From Streptomyces ferrugineus (lineage in GTDB: Bacteria > Actinomycetota > Actinomycetes > Streptomycetales > Streptomycetaceae): a stretch of DNA of 64,000 bases. Each line of letters begins with the position of its first letter. Positions within the stretch are counted from its first letter, which is position 1. Shown in pieces: positions 9,076 through 46,038 of the stretch. The stretch lies in assembly GCF_015160855.1 (NCBI RefSeq), contig NZ_CP063373.1, positions 8,035,001 to 8,099,000 of the forward strand, read 5' to 3'. The notes beneath the pieces are model-generated. The model made no database searches, had not been told where the DNA came from, and saw only the letters and a list, made by a program, of their open reading frames with translations. The position numbers and the translations under genes were made by a program.

Positions 9076-11331
9076 TCATTCGTCGGTCGCCGCGGCCGGC
9101 AGGGCCGCTCGCGGCCGCTGCCATCCCCGCGACCCGCGCGCCCGCAGCCACGCCGTCGTCTCCTCCGCCGGCATCGCGGCGGCCACCAGCCATCCCTGTA
9201 CGGCGTCGCAGCCCAGGTCCCGCAGCCGCTCCCAGGTCTCGTCGTCCTCGACGCCCTCGGCGACCACCAACAGGCCCAGCGAATGCGCCAGATCCACGGT
9301 GCAGCGCACGATCTCCGCGTCCTCGGTGTCCACCGCGAGCCGGGCCACGAACGAACGGTCGATCTTCAGCTCGCTCACCGGCAGCCGTCTGAGGTGGACC
9401 AGCGAGGAGTAGCCCGTGCCGAAGTCGTCCAGCGACATCTTCACGCCGTGCCCGGTCAGCCCGGCCAGCGTGTCCGCGGCACGCTGCGGGTCCTCCAGCA
9501 GGACGTGTTCCGTGATCTCCAGCTGGAGCGCCCCCGCCGGGACGCCGTGCCGGGCGAGCCGGGCGGCGACGGAGCCCGCGAAGCCGGGGGTGTGGACGTC
9601 GCGCGGGGAGACGTTGACCGCGACCGGCACGAACAGCCCCTGGGAGCGCCACTGGGCCACCTGCCCGAGCGCCGTCTCCAGCACGTACTCCGTCAGATGC
9701 GGCATCAGCCCCGAGGACTCGGCGATCGCTATGAACTCGTCCGGCGGCACCCTCCCGCGCTCCGGGTGCACCCAGCGGACCAGGGCCTCGAGGCCCGAGA
9801 CCTGTCCGTCGAAGCGGACCTTCGGCTGGTAGTGCAGCTCGACCTCGTGCGCGTCGAGGGCGCGGCGCAGATCGCCCAGCAGGCCCAGCCGGTCCGGGGT
9901 GTTCGAGTCGCGCTTGGACTCGTAGACCTCCACGCCCGTGCGGTCCCGCTTCGCCTGGTACATCGCGACGTCCGCGCGCCGCAGCAGCCCCTCGGCGTCC
10001 AGGGCGTGGTCGGGGAAGACGGCGACGCCCGCGCTGGCCTCCAGGACCAGGGTGAGGCCGTCGAGGTCGAGTGGGGAGCTGAGGGCGGTGACCAGACCGC
10101 GGGCGACCCGGGTCGCGGACGTCGTGGAGTCGGCGACCGGCAGTAAGACGGCGAACTCGTCGCCGCCGAGCCGCGCGGCCTCCGCTCCGCGCGGCAGGGC
10201 CAGGCGCAGCCGGTCCGCTATCTGCAACAGCAGCCGGTCACCGGCCAGATGACCGAGCGTGTCATTGACCGACCGGAACCGGTCGAGGTCGATCAGCATC
10301 AGGGCGGACCGGGCGCCGATGCGCTCGGCGTCGTCGAGCGCGGTCCAGATGCGCTCCAGCAGCCACTGCCGGTTGGGCAGCCCGGTCAGCGGATCGCGCA
10401 GCTGCTCCTCCGCCCGGGCCCGGGCTATCCACAGGGTGGAGTCCAGCGCGATGAGGGGGATCGCGAACAGCGGCAGCAGAAGGGGCTTGGCGATGGCGAC
10501 GACGCACACCAGCGGCGCGATGCCGAGCAGGGCGACCGCGACCAGGCCGTGTCTGACCAGGGCGGTGCGCTCGACGGTGGGCAGTCCGCCGCGCGGGGCG
10601 TGCAGGTACCACAGCAGGACCCGGGTGACCGCGAGGTAGGCGGCGGCGACGAGCACCACGCCGGGGGCGGTGTAGAGGGTCCAGCTGTCCGGATTCCAGG
10701 GGCTCTCGACGGTCGGCACCCGCCCGAAGGCGGCCAGCACGAGGGCCCCCGCCGCGATACCGAGGATGTCCACCGCGCCGTGCAGCACGCCCTGGCGCCA
10801 GCGGCCCCGGCGGGCGACCCCGACCAGGACGACGACGGTGAGGCTGACCATGCCGGCGGGCACCCAGCCGTACAGCATCAGCACGGCGAGGGTGAGGGCG
10901 GCGCCGGAGCCGGTGCCGCCCCACCAGCGGGCGCGGCCGAGCGCGACCAGGTGGCCGACGATGACGCCGGTCAGCACGGCCAGCGACCAGCCGACCGTGC
11001 CGGCCGGGAAGAGGGCGTGGTTGTCGGTGAACGCCCGGTAGAACCCGGCGCCGAGGACGAACCCGGCCGCCGCGACGACCGCCGCGGGCAGGGCGGGCCA
11101 GGACAGGTGCCGTTCGTGGTCGGAGTGGTGGTCGGAGTGGTGCAGCCCGGCGGCGCGGTCCGCGCCGAGCGGCGCGGTGGTGCGGCCGTCCACCGCGGTG
11201 CGCTGTCCGGTGGCGCGCCCGGCGCCGCCGTCCGCACCCGGACGCGCCGCTGTCCGCGCCGCCCATGCCCGCCACGCACCGGCCATCCGGCGCAGCCGTG
11301 AGTGCGGGGCGGCGCTCTCGGTCGGTTCCAT
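9076..11331 (-). CDS. rmdB: membrane-bound GGDEF-EAL c-di-GMP enzyme (RmdB-like)
   Basis: This 751-residue protein makes and/or degrades the second messenger cyclic di-GMP. The N-terminal 300 residues hold about eight or nine membrane helices. A GGDEF domain follows, with an intact GGDEF active site (RLGGDEFAVLL, about residue 390), and then an EAL domain with an intact EAL motif (LEALVRW, about 513) and DDFGTGYSS (about 633). Both domains keep their signature residues, so either activity is possible. The position next to ligA and the architecture match S. coelicolor RmdB as I remember it, which acts mainly as a phosphodiesterase affecting development. The ATG at 11331 is preceded by GAGAGGGA. 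Confidence 0.88.
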   Translation of the reverse strand: MEPTESAAPHSRLRRMAGAWRAWAARTAARPGADGGAGRATGQRTAVDGRTTAPLGADRAAGLHHSDHHSDHERHLSWPALPAAVVAAAGFVLGAGFYRAFTDNHALFPAGTVGWSLAVLTGVIVGHLVALGRARWWGGTGSGAALTLAVLMLYGWVPAGMVSLTVVVLVGVARRGRWRQGVLHGAVDILGIAAGALVLAAFGRVPTVESPWNPDSWTLYTAPGVVLVAAAYLAVTRVLLWYLHAPRGGLPTVERTALVRHGLVAVALLGIAPLVCVVAIAKPLLLPLFAIPLIALDSTLWIARARAEEQLRDPLTGLPNRQWLLERIWTALDDAERIGARSALMLIDLDRFRSVNDTLGHLAGDRLLLQIADRLRLALPRGAEAARLGGDEFAVLLPVADSTTSATRVARGLVTALSSPLDLDGLTLVLEASAGVAVFPDHALDAEGLLRRADVAMYQAKRDRTGVEVYESKRDSNTPDRLGLLGDLRRALDAHEVELHYQPKVRFDGQVSGLEALVRWVHPERGRVPPDEFIAIAESSGLMPHLTEYVLETALGQVAQWRSQGLFVPVAVNVSPRDVHTPGFAGSVAARLARHGVPAGALQLEITEHVLLEDPQRAADTLAGLTGHGVKMSLDDFGTGYSSLVHLRRLPVSELKIDRSFVARLAVDTEDAEIVRCTVDLAHSLGLLVVAEGVEDDETWERLRDLGCDAVQGWLVAAAMPAEETTAWLRARGSRGWQRPRAALPAAATDE

Positions 11332-11603
11332 TCCCGTCCCTCTCACAGCCGGCGGTGCCCACGCCACGCGGCCCGATGCCCGACAACGACCTTCAACGGC
11401 ACCGCGTTGGAAAGCCCTTCCCCTCGCCCTTCACAGCTCCTCAAGAGCAAAGGGATGCCCCAACCGCAGCTGGGCACGGCAGGCGCACATCTCAACAGTA
11501 GGCCGCAGAAGGCTTCCACGGGCAGCGGTCGTCGACGGTTGCCCGAATGCGCCCCAGCCACCCGTATGCATCTGGTATGCGCCGATCGGGTGACCTTCAA
11601 CCG

Positions 11604-13811
<2,208 letters not shown>

Positions 13812-14819
13812 TTACTCTGGGTTGTCCGCGAGGGATCTCGCCGCCCGGACGCAGTGGGCGAGGGCCTTGCGCGCGTACTCGGGAGAGGCCCCCGCGAGTC
13901 CGCACGACGGCGTGAGAGTGACCGCCTCCGCGAGAAGCCCCGGTGACAGCCCCAGCCTGCGCCACAGCGTCCTGACACCCATGACGCTACCGGCAGGGTC
14001 TGACAATGGGCCGTCCGTGCCCGGGACGACACCGGCGAAGAGCCGGGTGCCGCCTTCCACCGCCTCACCGATCGCGTCGTCGTCACGTTCGGTGAGCAGA
14101 GAGAGGTCGAAGGAGATCGCCGCCGCGCCCGCCCGGCGCAGCAGGGCGAACGGGACGTCCGGTGCGCACGAGTGGACCACGACGGGGCCGTCGCCGTGAA
14201 CCCCGACGACGTCGCGGAGGGTGGCCTCGACGGTCTGCCGGTCGACGGCCCGGTGGGTCCGGTAGCCGCTGGCGGTCTTCACCCGGCCGCGGAGCACGGC
14301 GATGAGGGAGGGCTCGTCGAGCTGGAGGACGACCTGGGCGCCGGGGACGCGGCGGCGGAGTTCCTCGATGTGCAGCCGCAGGCCCTCGGCGAGGGAGGCG
14401 GCGAGGTCGCGGCAGGCGCCGGGGTCGGAGAGGGCGGCCTCGCCGTTCTTCAGCTCCAGCGCGGCGGCGAGCGTCCAGGGGCCCACGGCCTGCACCTTCA
14501 GCGGCCCGTCGTAGTCCTGGGTGAACTCCTCCAGCGCGTCGAGGTCCTCCCCCAGCCACGACCTCGCCCGCCGGGTGTCCCGCCCCGGCCGGTCCCCGAT
14601 CCGCCACCCGCTGGGCTCCACGCGCGCGTACAGCTCGACGAGCATCCCGGCGGTCCGGCCGATCATGTCCGCGCCGGGCCCGCGGGCGGGCAGTTCGGCG
14701 AGGAACGGGAAGTCCTCGAGGGACCCGGTGACGGTCTTGGCGGCCTCACGGGCGTCGCCGCCGGGCATCGATCCGATGCCGGTGGCGGGGGCGAACCTGA
14801 ACGGGCTGTTTTCACTCAC
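13812..14819 (-). CDS. MetE-like (cobalamin-independent methionine synthase C-domain) protein
   Basis: This 335-residue protein has the fold of the C-terminal catalytic domain of cobalamin-independent methionine synthase (UROD/MetE superfamily). Conserved elements include TGIGSMPGGD at the N-terminus, QLDEPSL in the middle, and likely zinc ligands in HSCAPDVP and TPSCGLAG. It is far shorter than full MetE (about 750 residues) because it lacks the N-terminal domain. It may therefore act in a methyltransfer using a folate-independent donor, and its substrate is unknown. It is often annotated simply as methionine synthase in Streptomyces. It precedes ligA with a 15-base gap and may be co-transcribed. 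Confidence 0.8.
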   Translation of the reverse strand: MSENSPFRFAPATGIGSMPGGDAREAAKTVTGSLEDFPFLAELPARGPGADMIGRTAGMLVELYARVEPSGWRIGDRPGRDTRRARSWLGEDLDALEEFTQDYDGPLKVQAVGPWTLAAALELKNGEAALSDPGACRDLAASLAEGLRLHIEELRRRVPGAQVVLQLDEPSLIAVLRGRVKTASGYRTHRAVDRQTVEATLRDVVGVHGDGPVVVHSCAPDVPFALLRRAGAAAISFDLSLLTERDDDAIGEAVEGGTRLFAGVVPGTDGPLSDPAGSVMGVRTLWRRLGLSPGLLAEAVTLTPSCGLAGASPEYARKALAHCVRAARSLADNPE

Positions 14820-14871
14820 CCGGGAAGCCTATGCAACCCGCCCAGGGCCACGCTCGAGGCGTCCGGCTCGG

Positions 14872-15561
14872 TCAGCGTCCCGGCCGCACCGTCAGGTCGT
14901 TCACCTCCGCGTCCCGCGGCAGGTCCAGGGCCATCAGGATCGTCGTCGCGACCGACTCGGGGTCGATCCACTTCGAGGCGTCGTACTCCTTGCCCTCCTG
15001 CTGGTGGACCTTGGCCTGCATGGGGCTGGCCGTGCGGCCGGGGTAGACCGTGGTGACGCGGACGCCGTTGCCGTGCTCCTCGTGGCGCAGCGAGTCGGCC
15101 AGGGCCTTGAGGCCGTGTTTGGAGGCGGCGTAGGCGGACCAGTCGGCGTGCGCGTTGAGGCCGGCGCCCGAGTTGACGAAGATCACGTGGCCTCGGGTGG
15201 CGCGGAGCTGGGGGAGGAAGTGGCGGGTCAGCTCCGCGGGGGCGATCAGGTTGACGTTGAGCTGGTGGCGCCAGGACTTCGGGGTCAGGTCGCCCACCGG
15301 GCCCAGGTCCACGACCCCGGCGATGTGGAGCAGGGAGTCCACCCGGTCCGGAAGCGACTGGTGGGAGAAGGCCCAGGACAGCTTGTCGGGGTCGGCCAGG
15401 TCGCCGACCAGCGTCCTGGCGCCGGGGAACTCCGCCGCCAACTCCTTCGCGCGGCCCGCGTCGCGCGCGTGCAGGACGAGGTCGTCCCCGCGCGCGTGCA
15501 GACGGCGGGCGACGGCCGCGCCGATGCCGGAACCGGCTCCGGTGATCACATGAGTAGCCAT
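14872..15561 (-). CDS. short-chain dehydrogenase/reductase
   Basis: This is a 229-residue NAD(P)-dependent oxidoreductase of the classical SDR type. The cofactor motif TGAGSGIG is at residues 6-13. The catalytic Ser is in FVNSGAG, and Tyr and Lys are in YAASKHG. The substrate cannot be assigned. A second ATG at 15570 would add three residues (MAG). I prefer the inner start, since the family begins with MATHVITGAG-like sequence. No strong ribosome site is seen for either. Confidence 0.88.
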   Translation of the reverse strand: MATHVITGAGSGIGAAVARRLHARGDDLVLHARDAGRAKELAAEFPGARTLVGDLADPDKLSWAFSHQSLPDRVDSLLHIAGVVDLGPVGDLTPKSWRHQLNVNLIAPAELTRHFLPQLRATRGHVIFVNSGAGLNAHADWSAYAASKHGLKALADSLRHEEHGNGVRVTTVYPGRTASPMQAKVHQQEGKEYDASKWIDPESVATTILMALDLPRDAEVNDLTVRPGR

Positions 15562-15577
15562 GCCGGCCATGCTCGCA

Positions 15578-16149
15578 CTACCGGGCGCCCGCGCTCTCCT
15601 CCAGGTACGCCAGCGCCCCCACCGGCTCCTCCGCGAAGAACACCAGGTCGCTCAGCGGACGGGGCAGGAAGCCCTCCTCCTCCATGCGGCGGAACTGCTG
15701 CTTGAGGCCGTCGTAGAAGCCCGCGGTGTTGAGCAGGACCACCGGCTTGTCCGTGTGGCCGTGCTTCTTCAGCTCCAGGATCTCCGTCGCCTCGTCGAGC
15801 GTGCCCGTGCCGCCGACCATGATCACCACCGCGTCGGCCTTGTCCAGGAGCAGCTTCTTTCGTTCGGCGAGATCCCTGGCGATGACCATCTCGTCGGCGC
15901 CCGGACGGGCCTTCGCCGCGAGGAAGCCCACCGAGACCCCGCACAGCCGCCCGCCGGCGTCCTGCACTCCGTCGGCGACCACTTTCATCAGCCCGACGTC
16001 CGAACCGCCCCACACGTGGGGGTGCCCCCACGCCCTTAAGGCAGTGGGGGAGTGTGCCCGCCCTTGCCCAGCAGTTTCGCGAACTCGCGCGCGGGGCGCG
16101 TGTAACGGTCGTCGAGGTCGGCGGCGGAGAGGAAGACGCAGATTCGCAT
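15578..16149 (-). pseudogene. LOG-family (cytokinin-activating phosphoribohydrolase-like) gene, disrupted
   Basis: The reverse-strand frame from ATG 16149 reads MRICVFLSAADLDDRYTRPA, matching the N-terminus of LOG/TIGR00730 Rossmann proteins, but meets TAA after the codons for GKGGHTPPLP. The rest of the gene (VWGGSDVGLMKVVADGVQ, the PGGxGTxxE-like GGTGTLDEATEILEL, and onward to ESAGAR) continues in another frame. The break is a 38-bp palindromic repeat at 16016-16053 sitting where relatives read GHTLVWGG. It adds an in-frame stop and shifts the frame. Both halves otherwise look intact. A single-site error is unlikely because the inserted sequence is itself a structured repeat. Confidence 0.8.
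16016..16053. repeat. palindromic REP-like repeat inside the LOG-family gene
   Basis: This 38-bp GC-rich repeat has GTGGGGG and CCCCCAC arms around a CGCCCTTAAGGCAG core. It can form a hairpin (CCCCCAC/GTGGGGG stem, inner GCCTTAAGGC). It resembles the dispersed GGGGGCACC-type palindromes common in Streptomyces intergenic DNA. Here it interrupts a coding sequence. Confidence 0.7.
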
Positions 16150-16199
16150 GGGGCCACCGTACGCGGGAAGAACCCGGCGCCCGTGAGCGCTCTTCGGGT

Positions 16200-16523
16200 A
16201 TGGCTGATGGACACACGATCACGATCGAGCAGGGCGCGCGACGCGTACGGGCCGTTCACGGCGGCCAGGTCCTGGCGGAGAGCGACCGGCCCCTCGTGCT
16301 GCGCGAGACCGGCTGTCCCGTGCGGTACTACCTCCCCGCCGAGGACGTGCGGCTGGACCTGCTGACGCCCTCCGACACGCACACGTACTGCCCTTTCAAG
16401 GGAACGGCCTCCTACTGGTCGCTGCCGGACGCGGCGGACCTCGTCTGGTCGTATCCGGACCCCGAACCGGACGTGGCGGAGATCAAGGACCACCTCTGCT
16501 TCTACGAAGTCGAAGTGTCGTGA
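16200..16523 (+). CDS. DUF427 domain protein
   Basis: This 107-residue protein is a single DUF427 domain (NTP_transf_9 in Pfam). Typical motifs are RVRAVHGGQVLAES, LPAEDVRLDLL, THTYCPFKGTASYWS and the closing DHLCFYE. Family structures are small beta barrels, and the function is not established. It starts at ATG 16200, 50 bases from and divergent to the disrupted LOG-family gene. Confidence 0.88.
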   Translation: MADGHTITIEQGARRVRAVHGGQVLAESDRPLVLRETGCPVRYYLPAEDVRLDLLTPSDTHTYCPFKGTASYWSLPDAADLVWSYPDPEPDVAEIKDHLCFYEVEVS

Positions 16524-16560
16524 GCGATTAGTTCCGTGCCGTACGGCAATCTCCACAGGC

Positions 16561-17340
16561 ATGGACAAGAAGACCAATTCGGCCGACGGCACCTCCATCG
16601 CCTACGAGAGCACCGGCGAGGGACCGGTGGTGATCCTTGTCAGCGGCGCGATGTCCACCGGGGGCACCGTGGCGCCGCTGGCCGTGCCCCTGGCGGAGCA
16701 CTTCAAGGTCGTCGTGTACGACAGGCGGGGGCGCGGTGAGAGCCGTGACACGCCGCCGTACGCGGTGGAGCGCGAGGTCGAGGACCTCGCCGCGCTGATC
16801 GAGGCGGCCGGCGGGGAGGCGGCGCTGTGCGGCATCTCGTCGGGGGGCGCCCTGGCGCTGGAGGCGGCGGCGAGCGGGCTGCCGGTGCGTCAGGTCGCCG
16901 TGTACGAGGTGCCGTTCGCCGTCTACGAGGGCGGCGCCAAGGAGCGCGCGGAGTACACCGAGCGGCTGACGGAAGCCCTCGAGCAGGGCCGTCGCGGCGA
17001 CGCAGTCGAGCTGTTCCTGCGGCTGGCCGGGATGGCCGAGCAGATGATCCAGGGCGCCCGCCACTCCCCCATGTGGCCCGGCATGGAGTCGATCGCGCCG
17101 AGCCTGGCCTACGACAACGCCGTGATGGGCGACGGCCTGGTGCCCCGGGACCGATTGGCGTCGATCGCCGTCCCGGTGCTGGCCGTCGCGGGCAGCGCGA
17201 GCCCCGCGTGGATGCACGAGGCCGCGCGGGCCGTCGCTCGGACCGTGCCGGGCGGGACGTACCGGAGTCTGGAGGGGCAGACCCACATGGTGGAGCCGGA
17301 GGTGCTCGGGCCGGTGCTGGTGGAGTTCTTCGGGCGGTGA
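16561..17340 (+). CDS. alpha/beta-fold hydrolase
   Basis: This 259-residue soluble hydrolase has a canonical alpha/beta fold. The oxyanion region is VVILVSGAM, the nucleophile Ser lies in GISSGGALAL (about residue 95), and the catalytic His is in GQTHMVEPEVL near the C-terminus. The substrate is unknown. It follows the DUF427 gene by 37 bases on the same strand and converges on mnmA, with an 8-base gap. Confidence 0.88.
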   Translation: MDKKTNSADGTSIAYESTGEGPVVILVSGAMSTGGTVAPLAVPLAEHFKVVVYDRRGRGESRDTPPYAVEREVEDLAALIEAAGGEAALCGISSGGALALEAAASGLPVRQVAVYEVPFAVYEGGAKERAEYTERLTEALEQGRRGDAVELFLRLAGMAEQMIQGARHSPMWPGMESIAPSLAYDNAVMGDGLVPRDRLASIAVPVLAVAGSASPAWMHEAARAVARTVPGGTYRSLEGQTHMVEPEVLGPVLVEFFGR

Positions 17341-17347
17341 ACGGAGT

Positions 17348-18478
17348 TCAGACGGTCGACGGCGTCGCCCGCACCGTCGACGCGATCGTCGCCGAGCCCA
17401 CCACGCGCGTGCCGTCGTACAGGACGATCGCCTGGCCCGGGGCGACGCCGCGGACGGGCTCGGTGAAGGTGACCTCGAGGGAGCCGTCGATCAGTTCCGC
17501 GGTCACCTCGGTCTCGCCGCCGTGGGCGCGCAGCTGGGCCGTGTAGGTGCCGGGGCCGGTCGGGGCGGCGCCGCACCAGCGGGGCTTGATGGCGGTGAGG
17601 GCGCTGACGTCCAGGGCGGACGCCGGGCCGACCGTGACGGTGTTGTCCACCGGGGAGATGTCGAGGACGTAGCGCGGCTTGCCGTCGGCGGCCGGGGTGC
17701 CGATGCGCAGGCCCTTGCGCTGGCCGATGGTGAAGCCGTACGCGCCCTCGTGGCTGCCGAGCCTGGCGCCCGACTCGTCGACGATGTCGCCCTCGGCCTT
17801 GCCGAGGCGGTTCGCGAGGAAGCCCTGGGTGTCGCCGTCGGCGATGAAGCAGATGTCGTGCGAGTCGGGCTTCTTGGCGACCGCGAGGCCGCGGCGCTCG
17901 GCCTCCGCGCGGATCTCGTCCTTGGTCGTGAGCGTGTCGCCGAGCGGGAACATCGCGTGGGCGAGCTGCTTCTCGTCGAGGACGCCGAGGACGTACGACT
18001 GGTCCTTGGCCATGTCGGAGGCGCGGTGCAGCTCGCGTGTGCCGTCCTCGTTCCGTACGACCGTGGCGTAGTGGCCGGTGCAGACCGCGTCGAAGCCGAG
18101 GGCGAGCGCCTTGTCGAGCAGGGCCGCGAACTTGATCTTCTCGTTGCAGCGCAGGCACGGGTTCGGGGTGCGGCCGGCCTCGTACTCGGCGATGAAGTCC
18201 TCGACCACGTCCTCGCGGAAGCGGTCGGCGAGGTCCCACACGTAGAACGGGATGCCGATGACGTCCGCGGCGCGGCGGGCGTCGCGCGAGTCCTCGATGG
18301 TGCAACAGCCCCGCGCGCCCGTGCGGAAGGATTGCGGGTTCGCGGAGAGCGCGAGGTGGACGCCGGTCACGTCGTGGCCCGCTTCGGCCGCGCGGGCGGC
18401 GGCGACGGCGGAGTCGACCCCGCCGGACATGGCGGCGAGGACGCGGAGGGGGCGGGAGGGCTGCGCGGTGTCAGTCAT
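17348..18478 (-). CDS. mnmA: tRNA 2-thiouridylase MnmA
   Basis: MnmA inserts sulfur at position 2 of the wobble uridine in tRNA-Lys, -Glu and -Gln, using ATP and a persulfide from a cysteine desulfurase. It has 376 residues. The PP-loop [12 protein letters not shown] is at the N-terminus. The first catalytic Cys is in NPCLRCN (about 109) and the second in DICFIADGD (about 209). GGAAGGG precedes the ATG. A cysteine desulfurase gene on the same strand, about 1.1 kb upstream, is the plausible sulfur donor. Confidence 0.96.
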
Positions 18479-37478: not shown

Positions 37479-38774
37479 ATGTCTTCCCCCATGTCTTCTC
37501 CCATGTCCGACAAGTCCCTTCTGAACACGCCCCTGCACGAGCTCGATCCGGCGGTGGCCGCCGCGCTCGACGCCGAGCTGGAGCGTCAGCAGTCGACCCT
37601 GGAGATGATCGCCTCCGAGAACTTCGCGCCGGTCGCGGTCATGGAGGCGCAGGGCTCGGTCGCCACCAACAAGTACGCCGAGGGCTACCCCGGCCGCCGT
37701 TACTACGGTGGCTGCGAGCACGTCGACGTCGCCGAGCAGATCGCCATCGACCGGGCCAAGGAGCTGTTCGGCGCGGAGTACGCGAATGTGCAACCGCACT
37801 CCGGCGCCTCCGCCAACCAGGCCGCCCTGTTCGCCCTCGCCCAGCCCGGCGACACCATCCTCGGCCTGGACCTGGCGCACGGCGGCCACCTCACCCACGG
37901 GATGCGGCTGAACTTCTCCGGCAAGCAGTTCAAGGTCGTCCCGTACCACGTGGACGACTCCGGTCTCGTGGACATGGCCGAGGTCGAGCGTCTGGCCAAG
38001 GAGCACCGGCCGAAGGTGATCATCGCCGGGTGGTCGGCGTACCCGCGGCAGCTCGACTTCGCCGCGTTCCGGCGGATCGCCGACGAGGTCGGGGCGTATC
38101 TGTGGGTGGACATGGCGCACTTCGCGGGGCTGGTCGCGGCGGGGCTGCACCCGAACCCGGTCGAGTACGCGGACGTCGTCACCTCCACCACCCACAAGAC
38201 CCTGGGCGGGCCGCGCGGCGGCATCATCCTCGCGAGGAAGGACTTCGCGAAGAAGCTGAACTCCTCGGTCTTCCCCGGTTTCCAGGGCGGCCCGCTGGAG
38301 CATGTGATCGCGGCCAAGGCGGTGTCCTTCAAGGTCGCCGCGTCGCAGGAGTTCAAGGAGCGCCAGCGCCGTACGGTCGAGGGCGCCAGGATCCTCGCCG
38401 AGCGGCTGACGGCGGCCGATGCCCGTGCGGCCGGGGTGAACGTGCTGTCCGGCGGCACGGACGTGCATCTGATCCTGGTCGACCTGCGCGCCTCCGAGCT
38501 GGACGGACAGCAGGCCGAGGACCGGCTGCACGAGGTCGGCATCACGGTCAACCGCAACGCCGTCCCCAACGACCCGCGTCCGCCGATGGTGACGTCGGGC
38601 CTGCGCATCGGCACCCCCGCCCTGGCCACCCGCGGCTTCACGGCCGAGGACTTCGCCGAGGTCGCGGACGTCATCGCCGAGACGCTGAAGCCGTCCTACG
38701 ACGCGGACGCGCTCAGGGCCCGGGTCAAGGCACTGGCCGACAAGCACCCGCTGTACCCCGGTCTGAACAAGTAG
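37479..38774 (+). CDS. glyA: serine hydroxymethyltransferase
   Basis: GlyA interconverts serine and glycine with tetrahydrofolate and PLP. It has 431 residues from the first ATG. The PLP Lys is in [12 protein letters not shown] (about residue 240), and the family motif [19 protein letters not shown] is near the N-terminus (trimmed). Three near-identical in-frame starts exist in the opening [12 protein letters not shown], at 37479, 37491 and 37503. GGAG best suits the first. It is tightly linked to gcvH (14 bases). Confidence 0.96.
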
Positions 38775-38785
38775 TTCCTTTTTGT

Positions 38786-38826
38786 GGGGTGTCCCGCACA
38801 CTGGTCGGTGAGCGGCGGGGCACCCC
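38786..38826 (+). terminator. hairpin between glyA and sdaA
   Basis: A 12-bp stem (GGGGTGTCCCGC at 38786-38797, GCGGGGCACCCC at 38815-38826, one G-U pair) has a 17-base loop. There is no U-run after it. It may partly separate sdaA expression from the riboswitch operon. Confidence 0.55.
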
Positions 38827-38865
38827 GCGGAAACCTTTCGCACCACCCCGTATTGAGGAGTCCCC

Positions 38866-40233
38866 GTGGCCATCTCGGTCTTCGACCTGTTCTCGATCGG
38901 CATCGGCCCGTCAAGCTCCCACACGGTGGGCCCGATGCGCGCGGCGGGCATGTTCGCCCGCCGGCTGCGCAACGAGGGCGTGCTGCCCTCCGTCGCGTCG
39001 ATACGCTCCGAGCTGTACGGCTCGCTCGGCGCGACCGGCCATGGCCACGGCACCCCCAAGGCGGTGCTGCTCGGCCTGGAGGGCGATTCCCCGCGCACGG
39101 TGGACGTGGAGACCGCCGACGAGCGGGTGGAGAGGATCAGGTCGGAGGGCCGGCTCAGGCTCCTCGGCGACCACGAGATCCCCTTCGATTTCGACAAGGA
39201 CCTCGTGCTGCACCGTCGTAAGGCACTGCCGTACCACGCGAACGGCATGACGCTGTGGGCGTACGACGCCTCCGGCGCCGAGCTGACGTCCAAGACGTAC
39301 TACTCGGTGGGCGGCGGCTTCGTCGTCGACGAGGACGCGGTCGGCGCGGACCGCATCAAGCTCGACGACACGGTCCTGAAGTACCCCTTCCGCACCGGCG
39401 ACGAGCTGCTGCGCCTCACGCGGGAGACCGGCCTGTCGATCTCCGCGCTGATGCTGGAGAACGAGCGGGCCTGGCGCACCGAGGACGAGATCCGCACGGG
39501 CCTGCTGGAGATCTGGCGGGTGATGCGGGAGTGCGTGACCCGGGGCATGTCGCGCGAGGGCATCCTGCCGGGCGGCCTCAAGGTCCGCCGCCGGGCCTCG
39601 AACACGGCCCGCAAGCTGCGCTCCGAGGGCGACCCTAAGGCGCTCGCCATGGAGTGGATCACGCTCTACGCGATGGCGGTGAACGAGGAGAACGCGGCGG
39701 GCGGCCGGGTCGTCACCGCCCCCACGAACGGCGCGGCCGGCATCATCCCCGCCGTCCTGCACTACTACATCAACTTCGTACCGGGCGCCGACGAGGACGG
39801 CGTCGTCCGCTTCCTCCTCGCCGCCGGCGCCATCGGCATGCTCTTCAAGGAGAACGCGTCCATCTCCGGCGCCGAGGTCGGCTGCCAGGGCGAGGTCGGC
39901 TCGGCCTGCTCGATGGCGGCGGGCGCGCTGGCAGAGGTGCTCGGCGGCTCCCCGGAGCAGGTCGAGAACGCCGCGGAGATCGGCATGGAGCACAACCTCG
40001 GCCTGACCTGCGACCCGGTCGGCGGCCTCGTCCAGATCCCCTGCATCGAACGCAACGGCATGGCCGCGGTGAAGGCGGTCACGGCGGCCCGGATGGCGAT
40101 GCGCGGCGACGGCTCGCACAAGGTGTCCCTGGACAAGGTCATCAAGACCATGAAGGACACCGGCGCCGACATGTCGGTCAAGTACAAGGAGACGGCGCGG
40201 GGCGGGCTGGCGGTCAACATCATCGAGTGCTGA
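38866..40233 (+). CDS. sdaA: L-serine ammonia-lyase (serine dehydratase), single-chain Fe-S type
   Basis: SdaA converts serine to pyruvate and ammonia with a [4Fe-4S] cluster. It has 455 residues. The N-terminal motif [19 protein letters not shown] is typical. Cluster cysteines are in [17 protein letters not shown] and [19 protein letters not shown]. The GTG start has GAGGAG upstream. The last 58 bp, including the stop, are exactly repeated at 42109-42166, so the present 3' end was supplied by the integrated element between the repeats. Confidence 0.95.
40176..40233 (+). repeat. attL-like 58-bp direct repeat (sdaA end)
   Basis: This is an exact copy of 42109-42166, from GGTCAAGTACAAGG to the TGA stop of sdaA. 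Bases just outside differ (ATGTC before and GAGAAC after, against AGGTA and CAATTC at the right copy), so the repeat is exactly 58 bp. Confidence 0.9.
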
Positions 40234-40281
40234 GAGAACAGGCCCTGACCAGCACGTTCGTGTCTTTCAGTGCTGTCGGGG

Positions 40282-40303
40282 CCTTCCCTTCTTACTCGGA
40301 AGG
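40282..40303 (+). terminator. weak hairpin after sdaA, inside the island
   Basis: CCTTCC (40282-40287) can pair with GGAAGG (40298-40303) around a 10-base loop, followed by GGTTCTTG. It is a possible terminator that replaces the native one displaced by the insertion. Confidence 0.4.
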
Positions 40304-40402
40304 GGTTCTTGACCTGCGGGTTCGCGGTACGTGATCAACGCCGGATACACCGATCACCCATCGCTGGATGTATTAAATCGATCCCCTGAGCTGACGCGAG
40401 GG

Positions 40403-40416
40403 GTATCATTCGATAC
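40403..40416. promoter_or_regulatory. promoter/operator abutting the AbiEi start
   Basis: The inverted repeat GTATC-ATTC-GATAC lies directly against the ATG at 40417. It contains TATCAT, a good -10, placed so that the transcript would start at or next to the start codon (leaderless). AbiEi antitoxins bind inverted repeats in their own promoter, so this is a plausible autoregulatory site. Confidence 0.55.
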
Positions 40417-41031
40417 ATGGACGCTGCGGAGAACTCGCGCCTGGAACAGCGGCTGGCCCGCCTCTCCCCCACATTCACGACGGCGCAGGCACGTCAGGCC
40501 CTGCTCTCCCCTCGCGATCTGGCGCACTTGGTCACGGAATCGGAGATAGACGAACTGTCCCGTGGGGTGTACCGGCGGGCAGACGCCCCGGAGACCGCGC
40601 ACGCGGATCTGCTAGCCGTGTGCGCACGGGCCCCTCGCGCCGTCGTATGCGGTGAATCCGCCCTGGCCCTGCATGAGCTGATCGACGACATCCCCGCAGC
40701 AGTACACATCGCCGTGCCGCGCGGTACACGCCGCCCGACGATTTCCTACCCGCCGACCGTGGTGGCGCAGTACGCCGCAAAGACCTTCGGCCTCGGCGTC
40801 GAACGGTTCGAAGCGGCCCCGGGAGAGAGCATCCCCGTGTACAACGCGGCCCGCAGCGTCGTCGACGCAATGCGCCACCGCAGCCGCATCGGCGAGACCC
40901 TCGCCCTCTCCGCGCTCGGCCGCTACCTGCGCCGAAGCGGACGCGGCGGGGTCGGCGAACTACAGCACATCGCACGCGAGTTGGACGCTCTCTCCGTCAT
41001 CCGCCCCGCCGTAGAAGCAGTGCTCGCCTGA
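40417..41031 (+). CDS. abiEi: type IV toxin-antitoxin AbiEi antitoxin
   Basis: This 204-residue protein is the antitoxin and autorepressor of an AbiE system. The N-terminal winged-helix region (TFTTAQARQALLSPRDLAHLV, trimmed) is followed by the typical GVYRRAD segment and the CGESALALHELIDDIPAAVHIAVP core. The C-terminal helices (IGETLALSALGRYLRR and onward) match AbiEi antitoxins. It overlaps the toxin gene by one base (TGATG). It starts right after a palindromic promoter, with no ribosome site, so it is probably leaderless. Confidence 0.88.
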   Translation: MDAAENSRLEQRLARLSPTFTTAQARQALLSPRDLAHLVTESEIDELSRGVYRRADAPETAHADLLAVCARAPRAVVCGESALALHELIDDIPAAVHIAVPRGTRRPTISYPPTVVAQYAAKTFGLGVERFEAAPGESIPVYNAARSVVDAMRHRSRIGETLALSALGRYLRRSGRGGVGELQHIARELDALSVIRPAVEAVLA

Positions 41032-41930
41032 TGGCCAACCCCACCCGCGACACCACCACCGGCCGCGTCTACAACGACCTGCGCAAGCTGGCCCGCCGCA
41101 ACAGCCGGTCCACGGACGAGGTCATGGTCGAGTACGTCCTCGAACGGTTCCTCTACCGCCTGGCGACATCGCCCCTCGGCCGGGAACACTTCGTCCTCAA
41201 GGGTGGCCTGCTGCTCGCCCAGTTCGGCGCACGTCGAATGACTCGCGACATCGACATCCTCGGCCGCTCGTTCCCAGGCACCGAAACCGAGATCATCCGC
41301 AGGGTCGCGGCCATCGCCGCCACAGAGATCGACGACGGCGTCGCATTCGATCCCGCGACGCTCAAGACCGTCCCCATTCGTGAGGAGGACGAATACCACG
41401 GTCTGCGCCTGTCCATGGCCGCCTCCATCGCCCGAGCACGACTCAAGCTCCAACTCGATATCAGCTTCGGCGACCCCGTCACCCCCGGCCCCAGGATCAT
41501 CGACTACCCGCAGCAACTCACGACGGGCAGCTTCCAGATCCTCGGCTACCCACTCGCCACCGTCATGGCCGAAAAACTCTCCACCGCCATGTCACTCGGC
41601 GACCTCAACACCCGCGACCGCGATTACGGCGACCTCTACCGCCTGCTCACCCTCAACGACCTGGATGGCCAGGAACTCACCACAGCGCTGACCGCCACCG
41701 CCACACACCGCGGCATCGCCCTGAAACCCCTCAGCACCACCATCACCGACCTCGGTGAGCGGCGCCAGACCTCGTACGCCGCCTGGCGCCACCGACAAGG
41801 CACCGCCGCAACGAGCTACCCCGAACGCTTCACGGACGTCGTCCGGCAGGTCACTGCCTTCGCAGACACACTTCTCAACGGCGACGCCGTCACCCTCACT
41901 TGGAGTGCGGCGACCCTCACGTGGTCATGA
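41031..41930 (+). CDS. abiEii: AbiEii/AbiGii nucleotidyltransferase toxin
   Basis: This 299-residue toxin is a DNA polymerase beta-type nucleotidyltransferase. The strand-helix motif VLKGGLLLAQFGARRMTRDIDI holds the GG and the DxD metal residues (trimmed). LQLDISFGD supplies the third acidic residue, and MAEKLSTAM with RDRDYGDLYRLL follows, as in AbiEii proteins. Relatives cause reversible growth arrest and abort phage infection, and some modify tRNA ends. The C-terminus ends in a duplicated LTWS motif. The gene is intact, with the antitoxin directly upstream. Confidence 0.9.
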   Translation: MANPTRDTTTGRVYNDLRKLARRNSRSTDEVMVEYVLERFLYRLATSPLGREHFVLKGGLLLAQFGARRMTRDIDILGRSFPGTETEIIRRVAAIAATEIDDGVAFDPATLKTVPIREEDEYHGLRLSMAASIARARLKLQLDISFGDPVTPGPRIIDYPQQLTTGSFQILGYPLATVMAEKLSTAMSLGDLNTRDRDYGDLYRLLTLNDLDGQELTTALTATATHRGIALKPLSTTITDLGERRQTSYAAWRHRQGTAATSYPERFTDVVRQVTAFADTLLNGDAVTLTWSAATLTWS

Positions 41931-42260
41931 ACCAGACCTGGCCGACCGACCAGGCCTTCGGGGCGAACCCGGAACCTACGTAGTGCGAGTGCGGGGTTCA
42001 CCGAAGCCATCGCATGCCGCCCGAGCATCAACTGCCAATCCCGCAAGCGACCAAGCATGCCAAAACTGCAGGTCAGTCAACCCCATGATCAACAGCTGTC
42101 CACAGGTAGGTCAAGTACAAGGAGACGGCGCGGGGCGGGCTGGCGGTCAACATCATCGAGTGCTGACAATTCCGCATCAGGTACGCGTCAGCAGTGGCAC
42201 GGTGGGGCATACACCCAATCCAACTCCTCTCCCCCCACCGGCACTTCAGGGAGTCCCCCC
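41931..42260. other. intergenic region: island right flank and attR junction
   Basis: This is 330 bases without a gene. The first 178 bases (41931-42108) belong to the island; I see no integrase remnant, only imperfect short repeats. Next comes the 58-bp right repeat (42109-42166), then native DNA with the muramidase leader. Confidence 0.6.
42109..42166 (+). repeat. attR-like 58-bp direct repeat (old sdaA end)
   Basis: This is an exact copy of the sdaA 3' end (40176-40233), with stop codon, now cut off from the rest of the gene. It marks where sdaA ended before the island entered. Confidence 0.9.
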
Positions 42261-42818
42261 ATGATCCGCGGCATCGATGTCAGCGCGTACCAGTCGTCGT
42301 CCTACGGCACCGATGGCCTGTCCTTCGTCTTCATCAAGGCGACGGAGGGCCGCTCCTACATCAACCCCAAACTCGCCGCCCAGACGAAACGCGCCCGCGA
42401 CGCCGGCCTGGTCGTCGGCTTCTACCACTTCCTGTGGCCAGGCAACATCTCCGCCCAGGCCGAGTACTTCGTCAGCAAGGCCCCCGAGAAGGCGGGCGAC
42501 ATCCTCGCCGTCGACTGGGAGACAACGAGCGAGGGGACGCACGCGAGCAACGCGCAGAAGGACCTGTTCATCCGGAAGGTGAAGGAGAAGCGGCCGAACA
42601 ACCCGGTCATCCTCTACTGCAACCGGAACTACTGGCTGAACGTGGACACCACGTCCTACGCCGGCGACGGCCTCTGGATCGCCGACTACGTCACGGCGGG
42701 CAAGCCCCGCATCCAGGCCAAGTGGCGCTTCCACCAGTACACGGACAACCCGCTGGACAAGAACGTGGCGGATTTCTCCAGCAAGGCCGCCCTGCGGGAA
42801 TGGGCCGAGAACGCATGA
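42261..42818 (+). CDS. GH25 lysozyme-like muramidase
   Basis: This 185-residue enzyme is a single GH25 domain that cleaves peptidoglycan between MurNAc and GlcNAc. The catalytic Asp is in IRGIDVSAYQ (residue 5) and the Asp/Glu pair in ILAVDWETTSEGT. AGGGAG lies 8 bases before the ATG. There is no signal peptide, so it may act inside the cell, leave by lysis or be exported otherwise. It lay immediately downstream of sdaA before the island inserted. Confidence 0.92.
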   Translation: MIRGIDVSAYQSSSYGTDGLSFVFIKATEGRSYINPKLAAQTKRARDAGLVVGFYHFLWPGNISAQAEYFVSKAPEKAGDILAVDWETTSEGTHASNAQKDLFIRKVKEKRPNNPVILYCNRNYWLNVDTTSYAGDGLWIADYVTAGKPRIQAKWRFHQYTDNPLDKNVADFSSKAALREWAENA

Positions 42819-42820
42819 CG

Positions 42821-42855
42821 AAGGGGCGCCCTTCCCGCTGGGGAGGGCGCCCCTT
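42821..42855. terminator. bidirectional hairpin terminator
   Basis: A 16-bp inverted repeat (AAGGGGCGCCCTTCCC against GGGGAGGGCGCCCCTT, one mismatch) has a 3-base loop. It lies between the convergent muramidase and EF-hand genes. Confidence 0.8.
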
Positions 42856-42864
42856 CCAGGGGCG

Positions 42865-43083
42865 TCACTTGCTCAGGAAGGCCCAGAACTCGTCGAACGA
42901 CAGCAGCTTGTCGCCGTTGAGGTCACGGCTCTTGATGATCGCCTCGGCGACGGACTCGGTCACGTTCCAGTCGCCGCCCTGAGCCAGGGCGGACTTGAAC
43001 TCGGCTGCGGTGATGGTGCCGTCACCGTCCGCATCGATGCGCTCGAACTGCTTGCGTGCTTCCTCGATGTCGATCTGCGCCAC
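42865..43083 (-). CDS. cabC: EF-hand calcium-binding protein
   Basis: This 72-residue protein has two EF-hands. Loop 1, DADGDGTITAAE (about residues 18-29), and loop 2, DLNGDKLLSFDE (about 54-65), keep the metal-binding positions 1, 3, 5 and 12. The GTG at 43083 has GGGGCGG upstream. Its size and location near sdaA match S. coelicolor CabC as I remember it, linked to calcium-dependent spore germination and aerial growth. The gene name is therefore tentative. Confidence 0.85.
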   Translation of the reverse strand: MAQIDIEEARKQFERIDADGDGTITAAEFKSALAQGGDWNVTESVAEAIIKSRDLNGDKLLSFDEFWAFLSK

Positions 43084-43159
43084 CGATCCGCCCCTTTTCG
43101 TCGTACTCTTCGTCGCACGTTGATGTCGTGCCTTGACGTTTTTGCTGACGACGGTCAGA

Positions 43160-44074
43160 TTAACCGGCCACGCGTGCCTCCAACGCGGCGACCACCCACG
43201 CGAACTCCGCACGGTAGGTCGCCTCGGGCCCGCGGCCCTTCACGACCGACACCAACTCCCGATAGCGGGCGACCTCGTCGCTCACCGTGGACTTCAGGCG
43301 TGCGAGTACGGCGGCCGGGTCGGCGTCGCCGAGCAGGTCCCGCAGGATCCGCCCGGCCTCGGGCGACTCCGGCGCGATGCCCTGTCCTCGTGCCTCGGCG
43401 GCCAGCTGCACCAGCTTGCGGGAGAACCACATCGACGCCCCGGCAGGCGTCCCGGCTCCTCGGTCGGCCGCGTTGAACTCGGCCACCTGCCGCATCCGCG
43501 CCCGGAACCGGGGGTCCTGGAGCAGCTCGGCCAGCTCCACCCAGGCGTCCACCTGCTCGGCCGTCGCCTCGTCGGGCAGATCCACGGCCATCTCCCGCAT
43601 CCGGTCGCGGATCACGGGATCCGCCGTGTCCAGGCCGTGGAACATCTCGTCCACGAATTCCTCCAGGATCCGTCGCCGTTCGGCTGCCGACAGTCGGGCG
43701 AGTCTGTTCATCAGCGTCATCTCCTCAGCGGTCGAGCCGCGTCGCGCCACGGTCGACAGCACCGCACGGGTCACCTTCAAGGAACGGATCTGGGCGTCCA
43801 GCGCGGCGACGTGCGCGGCCGCGACCGACGCCACGTCCTTCTCGCCGCTGATCACCTCGCGTACGTCGGCCAGGCCCAGACCCAGCTCGCGCAGGGTGCG
43901 GATCAGCTCCAGGCGGGCGACGGACTCGGCGTCGTAGAGGCGATAGCCGCCCGACGAGCGGGTCACCGGGTGCAGGACGCCCTCGTCGGACCAGTAGCGG
44001 ATGGTCCGGACGGTGAGTCCGGTGACCCGGGCCAGCTCGCCGATGGTGAGAAGTCCGGTGCCGTCTTCGATCAT
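43160..44074 (-). CDS. MerR family transcriptional regulator
   Basis: This 304-residue regulator has an N-terminal MerR helix-turn-helix (LLTIGELARVTGLTVRTIRYW, trimmed), the wing (SSGGYRLYDAESVARL) and a dimerisation coiled coil (DVASVAAAHVAALDAQIRSLK). A long C-terminal region with TipAL-like helices (LARLSAAERRRILEEFVDEMF) suggests ligand sensing. It is divergent from a GNAT gene 57 bases away, which may be a target. Confidence 0.9.
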   Translation of the reverse strand: MIEDGTGLLTIGELARVTGLTVRTIRYWSDEGVLHPVTRSSGGYRLYDAESVARLELIRTLRELGLGLADVREVISGEKDVASVAAAHVAALDAQIRSLKVTRAVLSTVARRGSTAEEMTLMNRLARLSAAERRRILEEFVDEMFHGLDTADPVIRDRMREMAVDLPDEATAEQVDAWVELAELLQDPRFRARMRQVAEFNAADRGAGTPAGASMWFSRKLVQLAAEARGQGIAPESPEAGRILRDLLGDADPAAVLARLKSTVSDEVARYRELVSVVKGRGPEATYRAEFAWVVAALEARVAG

Positions 44075-44131
44075 GTCTGCGAGTGTGGGCCTTCCAGTGG
44101 GTGGAGACTCAAGGAGCGCGAGGATGGCGGG

Positions 44132-44776
44132 GTGGCGGCCGTGACGGAGACCTTGCGGGACATCCTGGACGCGGCGGCACGGGGTGTCTTCCCACCGCCG
44201 GACGGCCGTACGACGGTCGTGCCCCAGCCGTCTCCCCGGAGCGCGGGCGTCGTCGCCTTCACCGCGCACTCGGTCGTCTTCACGGACGAGGATCCGCGGT
44301 GGGTGTACGACACCCTGCGCGCGGCGGACTGCGACGCCCTCGCCGCGACGATGAACCCACGGTTCCTGGCGGCCTTGATGGAGCGGACGGGACGTACGAC
44401 CGAGACCATCGACTCGGTCCTGGTCGGCACCCCGCTCCCGGGTGAGCCGCCGCTCGCCCTGAAGGAGATCGCGGACGCATGCCATCCCCGGATCGGCTAC
44501 GCCCAAGGGCGGCGCGACGAGGTGCGCGCCTGGGCGGTGGAGGGCGGTGTGCTGGTGATGGGGCGCGGGGTCGCCGGGCGGCTGGAGGTGTCGGTGGAGG
44601 TGGACGAGTCCGTACGGCGGCGGGGGCTGGGGCGGCTGCTGGTGACCACGGCCCGGCATCTCGTGACCGAGCCGCTGTGGGCGCAGGTGGCGCCGGGGAA
44701 CGCCCGCAGTGTGCGGGCGTTCCTGGCGGCCGGCTATCGGCCGGTGGGCGCGGAAATGCTGCTGCACGGCACGTAG
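44132..44776 (+). CDS. GNAT family N-acetyltransferase
   Basis: This 214-residue acetyltransferase has its CoA-binding motif near the C-terminus (VDESVRRRGLGRLLVTTARHL, trimmed; VAPGNARSVRAFLAAGYRPVG). The N-terminal 130 residues form an additional, less conserved domain. The GTG at 44132 is chosen with GAGGA 7 bases upstream. A second GTG at 44141 is an option. The substrate is unknown. Confidence 0.85.
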   Translation: MAAVTETLRDILDAAARGVFPPPDGRTTVVPQPSPRSAGVVAFTAHSVVFTDEDPRWVYDTLRAADCDALAATMNPRFLAALMERTGRTTETIDSVLVGTPLPGEPPLALKEIADACHPRIGYAQGRRDEVRAWAVEGGVLVMGRGVAGRLEVSVEVDESVRRRGLGRLLVTTARHLVTEPLWAQVAPGNARSVRAFLAAGYRPVGAEMLLHGT

Positions 44777-44841
44777 ACGTGCGCCGGGCATCTTCACCCG
44801 TTCGGCGGCGTGTCCGATGACCGGGGGCAACCTTTCGTCGG

Positions 44842-46038
44842 CTAGCGGAAGATGCCGGTGTGGCCGAGGGAGTAGCGGCCCGGCTGCGGGTAGACGGCGA
44901 GACCGTGCGGGCCCTCGCCGACCTCGATGCGGGCGAGTTCCTCACCGGTGCGGGTGTCGATGGCGTACACCTCGGAGTCATAGCGTCCCGAGAGCCACAG
45001 GACCTTGCCGTCGGCGGAGACGCCGCCCATGTCGGGGCTGCCGCCGTCGGGGAGGTGCCACTTCTTGGTGAGCTTGTCGCGGGTGAAGTCGAAGACGGAG
45101 ACGCTGCCTTCGCCGCGGTTGGAGACGTACATCTCGCGGGAGTCGCGGCTGACGTAGAGGCCGTGGCAGCCCTTGCCGGTGGGCAGCAGCTTCGGGGTGT
45201 CGAACTTGTCGCCGTCCAGCACCCACATGCCGTCGGCCATCATGTCGGCGATGTAGAACTTCTTGCCGTCCGGGGAGACCTTGACGTCCTGCGGCATGGC
45301 GCCGTCGAAGGGGAGTTTCTGCTGGCCGACGACCTTCATCTTCTCGGTGTCGACCTTGAGGAGTTCACCGCTGAACTCGCAGGAGACGATGAAGTAGCGG
45401 CCGTCGAGCGAGAAGTCGGCGTGGTTGACGCCGTAGCAGGTGACCGGCTCGGTCTTGAGGCGCTTCATGGTGTGGGGGTCGCGGAAGACGAGTTCGCGGT
45501 CGAGGGAGGCCATGACGACGGCGTACTTGCCGTTGGGGGTGAAGTAGAGGTTGTAGGGGTCGTGGACCTTCACCTCCTTGCCCGCCTTGCCGGTCCTGGG
45601 GTCGATGGGGGTGAGGGTGTGGCCGCGGTTGTTGTTGACCCAGAGGGTCTTCAGATCCCAGGACGGGACGACGTGCTGGGGCTGGCGGCCGACGGCGATG
45701 GTGTCGATGATCTTGTAGGTCTTGGGGTCGATGACGGAGACGGTGTCCGACTCGGTGTTGGGGACGTAGACGCGGGAGGGGAAGTCCTTGACGACCGGGG
45801 AGAGCTTGTTGGGGCGGTCGGCGGCGTAGACGTCCTTCGGGTCCAGGACGGGGGGCATGCCGGGGAGGCCCCGGACGGTCTGCTCCTTCGCCGGGGCGGG
45901 CACGGCGGCCTGGGTGCCGTGGGGTGATTCGGGGTGGTGGCGGTCCCTGCCCTTGGCGGACTCGGTGCCGCAGGCGGCGAGGGCGAGGAGAGGGAGGGCG
46001 GCGAGGAGGGTGCGGTGCGTGCGGTGGGGGCGATTCAT
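44842..46038 (-). CDS. YVTN-type beta-propeller lipoprotein
   Basis: This 398-residue exported lipoprotein has a signal peptide ending in the lipobox LALAAC (Cys at about 25). The mature part is built of seven YVTN/NHL-like propeller blades, for example VYVPNTESDTVSVIDPKTYKIIDTI (trimmed), VKVSPDGKKFYIADM and MYVSNRGEGSVSVFD. It probably binds a partner or metal outside the cell. GGAAGA precedes the ATG. Its function is unknown. Confidence 0.85.
   Translation of the reverse strand: MNRPHRTHRTLLAALPLLALAACGTESAKGRDRHHPESPHGTQAAVPAPAKEQTVRGLPGMPPVLDPKDVYAADRPNKLSPVVKDFPSRVYVPNTESDTVSVIDPKTYKIIDTIAVGRQPQHVVPSWDLKTLWVNNNRGHTLTPIDPRTGKAGKEVKVHDPYNLYFTPNGKYAVVMASLDRELVFRDPHTMKRLKTEPVTCYGVNHADFSLDGRYFIVSCEFSGELLKVDTEKMKVVGQQKLPFDGAMPQDVKVSPDGKKFYIADMMADGMWVLDGDKFDTPKLLPTGKGCHGLYVSRDSREMYVSNRGEGSVSVFDFTRDKLTKKWHLPDGGSPDMGGVSADGKVLWLSGRYDSEVYAIDTRTGEELARIEVGEGPHGLAVYPQPGRYSLGHTGIFR

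Follow-up and report, generated by a model that had tools for sequence, protein, structure and literature searches.

Islands that lack integration and transfer genes and lie between two core sites, in some cases in tandem, are known as cis-mobilizable elements (CIMEs), as defined in PMC5704250; they keep attL and attR and are moved in cis by an element that has accreted to them, and their known helpers are integrative and conjugative elements (ICEs). In Streptomyces, the decayed elements called DAICEs (PMC9513070) contain cargo between direct repeats, with empty sites elsewhere and truncated integrases, and one of them is located in a protein-coding glycosyltransferase gene. The toxicogenic region TR1 of S. 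scabiei (PMC8369830) is a CIME that needs a neighbouring element, and its transfer has been demonstrated. In Dehalococcoides, 16 islands with a common integration module have been described, many of them in tandem at the 3' end of ssrA, an essential single-copy gene (PMC3146451). The locus described here is an island of 1,933 bp (stop to stop) at the 3' end of sdaA, the L-serine dehydratase gene, of Streptomyces ferrugineus. It is located in a stretch of 64,000 nt (the window), which covers 8.035-8.099 Mb of the 9.96-Mb one-contig genome. With a probability of about 0.78, we regard it as an immobilised derivative of a Streptomyces island family in which a dedicated tyrosine integrase directs insertion at sdaA. 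Other genomes and loci are given by our handles (G and L numbers, S. ferrugineus being G000). The features at the locus, in window coordinates, are:

38866-40233, plus strand: sdaA, L-serine dehydratase, the target gene (455-aa open reading frame; SDH_alpha 317 bits, SDH_beta 213 bits)
40176-40233, plus strand: left core (attL), which completes sdaA (58/58 identity with 42109-42166)
40241-40283, plus strand: left-end hairpin common to the island family (fold of 40231-40299; stem count over left ends)
40294-40300, no strand: left deletion junction, where 70 bp with AAGTCCCTG-type repeats are gone relative to G275 (pairwise alignment; repeat count 0)
40370-40416, plus strand: imperfect inverted repeat directly 5' of the AbiEi start (sequence inspection; also in the AbiE islands of relatives, by alignment)
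40417-41031, plus strand: AbiEi antitoxin/regulator, 204 aa (PADLOC, Pfam)
41031-41930, plus strand: AbiEii nucleotidyltransferase-type toxin, 299 aa (PADLOC, Pfam)
42048-42049, no strand: right deletion junction, where 78 bp with the right-hand repeats are gone relative to G090 (pairwise alignment)
42049-42108, plus strand: non-coding remnant of the family right end, which aligns with the integrase gene's 3' end (alignments, sequence)
42109-42166, plus strand: right core (attR; 58/58 repeat)
42167-42260, plus strand: original right flank, which abuts the sdaA stop in empty-site relatives (empty-site alignments)
42261-42818, plus strand: GH25 gene, chromosomal neighbour (Glyco_hydro_25 146 bits)

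The 58-bp direct repeat, formed by the sdaA 3' end including the stop codon, can be extended without gaps to 65 nt at 97% and is the longest direct repeat within 38000-45000, the runner-up measuring 38 nt at 76% (among the 20 of 28 families listed). It is not a chance repeat, because the same core pair and left end recur in other genomes and the empty site exists. A first-pass annotation had proposed that an exact duplication of the sdaA 3' end flanks an AbiEi/AbiEii pair, that the element was inserted there in a way that restored the gene, and that it carries no recombinase. These proposals hold: both Abi genes are intact, the left core completes the 455-aa frame, empty sites are found in relatives, and a search for integrase similarity outside the core was negative. 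As in a CIME, no integration or transfer genes are present, AbiEi and AbiEii being the only credible genes between the cores; the attL and attR cores are intact, while the repeats outside them are gone. The genes of an intact actinomycete integrative and conjugative element (int, rep and tra/traB) are absent, and none would fit in 1.9 kb. By alignment, nothing lies between the right core and the original flank, and no accreted element is present at this locus. No tRNA gene was found in the 64,000-nt window, and an Rfam scan of 40100-42400 gave three matches up to E 1, the best at E 0.25 and none near its gathering score.

For the empty site, the two island flanks were joined into a query of 326 bases and searched against 392 genomes of the genus; a match had to start at or before position 3 and end at or after position 323. 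The empty sdaA-GH25 junction was matched in at least 13 of the 392 genomes (G230, G060, G359, G324, G219, G200, G366, G338, G176, G362, G076, G131 and G127), so that strains in which sdaA runs straight into the GH25 flank, as anticipated in the first-pass annotation, do exist. In the eight that were aligned base by base (G230, G060, G359, G324, G219, G200, G338 and G176), the sdaA stop abuts sequence that in S. ferrugineus is found 3' of the right core. The G230 site aligns over all 326 bases without gaps, at 92%, and the other aligned sites show small differences in intergenic length. These alignments place the point of insertion precisely at the core. An unrelated segmental duplication, with AbiE genes that are ancestral at the locus, was rejected on account of the empty sites and is extremely improbable: a 424-bp duplication of the sdaA 3' end at the same locus in G095 shows that such events take place, but the gap-free site of G230, an element-specific left end in 63 of 82 loci and an integrase gene that reads into the core all argue against it here.

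Around the target gene, a few other arrangements were observed. Loci L068 (G095) and L148 (G054) have a similar gene set 3' of sdaA (a DEAD-box helicase-like gene and one for a protein starting MSTAQTERAEA), behind which the sdaA 3' end recurs as a longer copy (424 bp in G095), a different kind of duplication. About 1.2 kb (G356:C3, L230) and about 50 bp (G243:C92, L231) separate sdaA from the GH25 flank in two further genomes, each time with a partial core match at the end, possibly the scar of a lost island. The S. ferrugineus genome contains a second glyA-sdaA pair (G000:C1:3596000-3603000, L089) with no island left end behind it; its glyA is 98.5% identical to the window copy over 1,237 bp and its sdaA just 84.9%, a contrast as after gene conversion or a recent duplication of glyA alone.

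Related loci were fetched for having a second core or a left-end match, and part of the listed candidates was fetched; counts such as 63 of 82 or 12 of 19 thus describe the fetched set, not the genus. Genes in relatives were called with a codon-usage open reading frame caller, not taken from annotation. The island left end (40234-40294 in S. ferrugineus) is common to 63 of the 82 examined loci, from 61 genomes. In 24 of these 63 a second core is present, 977 bp to 54 kb away within the fetched stretch, and four longer core pairs span about 109 kb (G069), 120 kb (G361), 137 kb (G066) and 152 kb (G022), the left core of the last being preceded by a short sdaA piece only, away from the intact gene. 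This shared left end, with its 24 second cores and four longer pairs, indicates from sequence comparison that the sdaA 3' end is a recurrent integration site in Streptomyces. In the collection of named genomes, a strict left-end pattern hit 20 records, of which 19 bear a Streptomyces label and one that of [Kitasatospora] papulosa. In G255, G096, G396 and G115, another left end lies directly 3' of the second core, as after tandem accretion. This serial arrangement behind a single gene resembles that at ssrA of Dehalococcoides, which differs in having a serine recombinase, an RNA gene as target and a 20-bp repeat (PMC3146451). A core and left end with repeats are also present away from intact sdaA in L181 (G174), L182 (G089) and L183 (G214), with unrelated sequence upstream of the core; these may be secondary sites or moved pieces.

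The larger elements with the same ends and an integrase gene, for which the first-pass annotation had suggested a search, were found at sizes of 54-152 kb. The G066 island encodes, near its right boundary, a 478-aa tyrosine recombinase (Phage_integrase 39.5 bits, cut-off 27.1; PHROG integrase 8.5e-50). Its frame enters the core and stops at the sdaA stop codon, its final 18 residues being the SdaA carboxy-terminus. Residues 1-478 are covered by at least five hits among the 392 genomes, unbroken in G066, G069, G255 and G361 and with a stop in G022, while carboxy-terminal pieces of falling length are located at other right ends (e.g. G137, G067, G096 and G129). This integrase of the 54-152 kb islands is likely the cognate recombinase of the sdaA site. 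It would insert the islands into the sdaA 3' end; since its frame runs into the core, the incoming DNA supplies a working end for sdaA. Direct-repeat-flanked cargo, empty sites and truncated integrase genes are shared with the DAICEs (PMC9513070). The target here is sdaA, and the sdaA-type integrase gene (int) and its target have their 3' end in common.

The best integrase match in the S. ferrugineus genome has an E-value of 5e-68, in the range of integrases at about 40-50% identity among the matches listed, compared with 1.6e-244 or better for near-full-length sdaA-type genes; the cognate recombinase therefore seems absent from this genome. Among phage and plasmid records, 505 and 34, respectively, match the integrase, none at 60% identity, so no helper could be named. 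No gene for FtsK/TraB was found in the islands of four of the five int-bearing genomes, in a search for FtsK_SpoIIIE (PF01580) only and not for type IV secretion, relaxase or replication genes; in this, the sdaA islands differ from the ICEs that serve as known CIME helpers (PMC5704250). Integrases 68-74% identical to the sdaA type but lacking the SdaA tail are encoded at L107-L113, some ending in VPEKSL and a short tail. In flanks of about 1.5 kb per side, too short to be telling, no 24-base repeat was found near the ends of these genes or of the sdaA-type ones.

Outside the core, copies of AAGTCCCTG (with at most one mismatch) are arranged in tandem on both sides. On the left, where repeats with up to one mismatch were counted in the 200 nt that follow the core, at least two are present in 39 of the 63 loci and at least one in 46. 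The fetched DNA has a background of 0.026 per 150 nt; in the 64-kb window, exact copies are absent from both strands and 19 copies have one mismatch. On the right, the repeats are the int codons for VPEKSL. A reverse-strand match occurs in 31 of the 63 left ends, all 31 being CAGGGCCTT, a hairpin arm that matches at one mismatch, which makes the one-mismatch rule a loose one. By analogy with other tyrosine integrases, the repeats may be arm-type integrase-binding sites.

In five of the 24 islands with a left end and both cores, int sequence is present outside the core (G067, G364, G043, G214 and G255). Twelve of the 19 int-less islands keep at least one repeat on each side (G031, G129, G103, G096, G090, G396, G282, G408, G174, G275, G212 and G335), and repeats at both ends are what a mobilised element would need. 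Three points weigh against the preferred interpretation. The other seven int-less islands (G000, G071, G266, G048, G054, G115 and G268) are without repeats on one or both sides, the second core copy of G054 being part of an sdaA stretch that is longer and damaged; repeats also occur in four of the 19 control loci in which no left end was recognised (G137, G056, G307 and G106), which we take as diverged left ends; and the repeats could have nothing to do with integrase binding.

The right ends of the int-less islands are probably derived from int, since they can be aligned with its 3' end and that of G096 retains weak similarity to the integrase carboxy-terminus (44%, core included). Among twelve of them, similarity is 84% within the repeats, 94% within the GCAGGTCA block and 62% elsewhere; the first figure, reached by 3 of 5,000 random column sets, is partly by construction, as these right ends were chosen for having repeats. 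The GCAGGTCA block played no part in the choice, and G307 is not among the twelve.

The left-end hairpin remains in islands that have lost the repeats, the S. ferrugineus copy included. There, the fold of 40231-40299 has an energy of -30.3 kcal/mol (z -3.5). Over 67 left ends, the 14-pair stem is kept in 882 of 938 cells, compared with 0.32-0.48 in slid controls. The stem is almost invariant, only six cells being changed on both sides, and so it is compatible with a hairpin in RNA as well as with an inverted repeat in DNA; Alifold on the left ends gave five pairs and -1.7 kcal/mol. The hairpin may terminate sdaA transcription after insertion, and a promoter and terminator scan found no U-tract terminator after it.

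In the S. ferrugineus copy, the stretches missing relative to G275 on the left (70 bp) and G090 on the right (78 bp) are the repeat-bearing ones, by pairwise alignment, and the repeat counts outside the core are 0 on the left and 0 on the right. The repeats have been removed by two deletions, and what is left of int is a short non-coding remnant of its end; with an in-frame TAG at 42107-42109, ahead of the remainder of the right core, no part of int is readable into it. With the core-flanking repeats gone on both sides and a best integrase match in its own genome of just E 5e-68, the copy is unlikely to be mobilisable and would be immobile even if an integrase arrived. Both options of the earlier description, a cis-mobilisable satellite or a deletion derivative, stand for the family, with repeats at both ends of 12 of 19 int-less islands and truncated int genes; the mobility of this copy is not supported. 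That the copy can still be excised and inserted through the core alone by the integrase of a visiting island is improbable. In favour are two undamaged, identical cores, the occurrence of int-bearing islands within the genus and a 2,084-bp AbiE island of the same plan in G090; the lost repeats and the missing close match to the cognate integrase in this genome speak against it. The G090 island has the AbiE unit and about 118 bp 3' of AbiEii in common with S. ferrugineus, which means that the two-gene form did not arise at this locus alone. Compared with CIMEs (PMC5704250), the likely arm sites of this island are gone and mobilisation is putative; compared with TR1 (PMC8369830), for which transfer is on record, the site (aviX1 for TR1), size and cargo are different.

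Type IV AbiE systems act in phage abortive infection, AbiEi neutralising the toxicity of AbiEii without direct contact. The AbiEi of the island matches its best PADLOC model at E 4.1e-97 and Pfam AbiEi_4 at 25.8 bits (cut-off 25), its AbiEii PADLOC at 1.5e-82 and Pfam AbiEii at 118.9 bits (cut-off 22.5; 4.5e-34). Their genes overlap by 1 base, as is known for the AbiE family, with homologues of both in one operon; here the pair, a putative toxin-antitoxin system, lies within an sdaA island. The imperfect inverted repeat at 40370-40416 is a possible AbiEi operator. The island had been called a defence satellite, a label that comes from the family names and makes its role in defence a putative one. 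Of the examined loci, 14 contain AbiE sequence and 16 a PIN-domain (VapBC-like) pair or fragment, G031 having both; in 28 of these 29 loci the first such sequence starts 82-352 bp after the left core, G103 being the exception. AbiEi is open in 10 of the 14 AbiE loci and AbiEii in five, always with an open AbiEi. Ratios of nonsynonymous to synonymous divergence (dN/dS) of 0.13-0.29 relative to the S. ferrugineus copy indicate that the intact pair is under purifying selection.

Several pairs are less diverged than their host genes. Relative to G275, the AbiE DNA is 98.3% and sdaA 90.1% identical, with dS values of 0.062 for AbiEi, 0.026 for AbiEii and 0.249 for sdaA; AbiEi and sdaA have dS values of 0.129 and 0.300 in G396, and the AbiE and sdaA values are 0.249 and 0.465 in G002 and 0.216 and 0.351 in G031. 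The G275 left end is just 79% like that of S. ferrugineus, compared with 98% for AbiE, so that ends and cargo must have been reshuffled. Other values count against horizontal movement with the island: AbiE dS is near the host value in G090 (0.327 and 0.264, sdaA 0.377) and G174 (0.263, sdaA 0.289), mixed in G335 (0.150 and, for AbiEii, 0.381; sdaA 0.326) and higher than that of sdaA in G268 (0.536 and 0.628, sdaA 0.431). In addition, AbiE pairs away from sdaA, 82% (L075, G024) and 74% (L076, G158) like the S. ferrugineus pair, indicate that such pairs do not depend on the sdaA site. Horizontal movement is thus supported by the divergence values for some pairs only, homologous recombination being a possible alternative. 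The G024 copy adjoins a 42-nt match to the right-hand spacer of the S. ferrugineus island.

Cargo other than AbiE and PIN-domain genes is also found. JetA3 and JetC3 (Wadjet) are encoded in the int-less G031 island, and DrmA, DrmB, MzaB, C and D, together with a cytosine methylase matching DrmMII among others, in int-bearing G255. In this 54-kb island (L171-L173), DISARM-like and Mza-like genes occur together with a lantibiotic dehydratase gene. Metabolic and transport genes are present in G214 and G067, as judged from translations by eye. In view of the metabolic, transport and lantibiotic cargo, the sdaA site is not exclusive to defence. The int-less L133 (G174, about 9706-17776) contains an open AbiEi gene, a broken AbiEii gene and genes for a PIN toxin, a protein with a RES domain, a CHAT protein of 961 aa and one protein with a caspase domain, possibly an uncharacterised defence set.

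How the int-less islands arose can be read in two further ways. All of them might be independent remnants of large integrase islands that were never mobilised in trans, the small ones persisting only because toxin-antitoxin genes resist deletion. The graded series of truncated integrases at the right ends, the alignment of int-less right ends with the int 3' end, the AbiEii genes broken or missing in nine of 14 AbiE loci, with no intact AbiEii without AbiEi, and the decayed elements known between repeats in Streptomyces (PMC9513070) are as expected from decay alone. Repeats at both ends of 12 of the 19 int-less islands, right ends that are alike also upstream of the repeats, as expected of one lineage, and AbiE genes less diverged than sdaA in G275, G396, G002 and G031 are not, and we consider this origin possible, with the odds against it. 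Slightly better placed, and still short of even odds, is a true integrase-less, site-specific satellite lineage at sdaA, with shared ends bearing arm-type repeats, swapped cargo (AbiE, PIN-domain pairs, Wadjet and RES/CHAT/caspase genes) and an integrase borrowed from the 54-152 kb islands. S. ferrugineus would then hold a domesticated member with a fixed gene pair, both sets of arm sites having been lost, and as part of the same tentative proposal the right-hand arm sites would be hidden in int codons, with the integrase carboxy-terminus being that of SdaA. Under the preferred interpretation, an immobilised derivative of an integrase-driven family, int-less islands would be, or have been, moved by the integrase in trans, or in cis after tandem accretion, and the AbiEi/AbiEii pair probably persists because toxin-antitoxin genes are hard to lose, with phage resistance as a possible reason too.

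One open library of papers, from which most subscription journals are absent, yielded no description of a serine dehydratase (sdaA) integration site, an SdaA-tailed integrase or int-less toxin-antitoxin islands at this site. The best reading is of a CIME-like island family that carries toxin-antitoxin genes and targets a protein gene, with the S. ferrugineus copy as its fossil. It points to the sdaA 3' end as a recurrent hotspot in a protein-coding metabolic gene, for which a likely integrase, unoccupied sites and a graded series of derivatives, the smallest with two genes, can be named. An integrase gene whose 3' end is also that of its target is an elegant means of entering a protein gene and leaving it unbroken. 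The series permits asking whether toxin-antitoxin pairs retain island remnants and whether int-less islands borrow an integrase. With defence genes of the DISARM and Mza types in an int-bearing island and of the Wadjet type in an int-less one, the stretch 3' of sdaA is also a place to seek more such genes in Streptomyces, some islands carrying other cargo.

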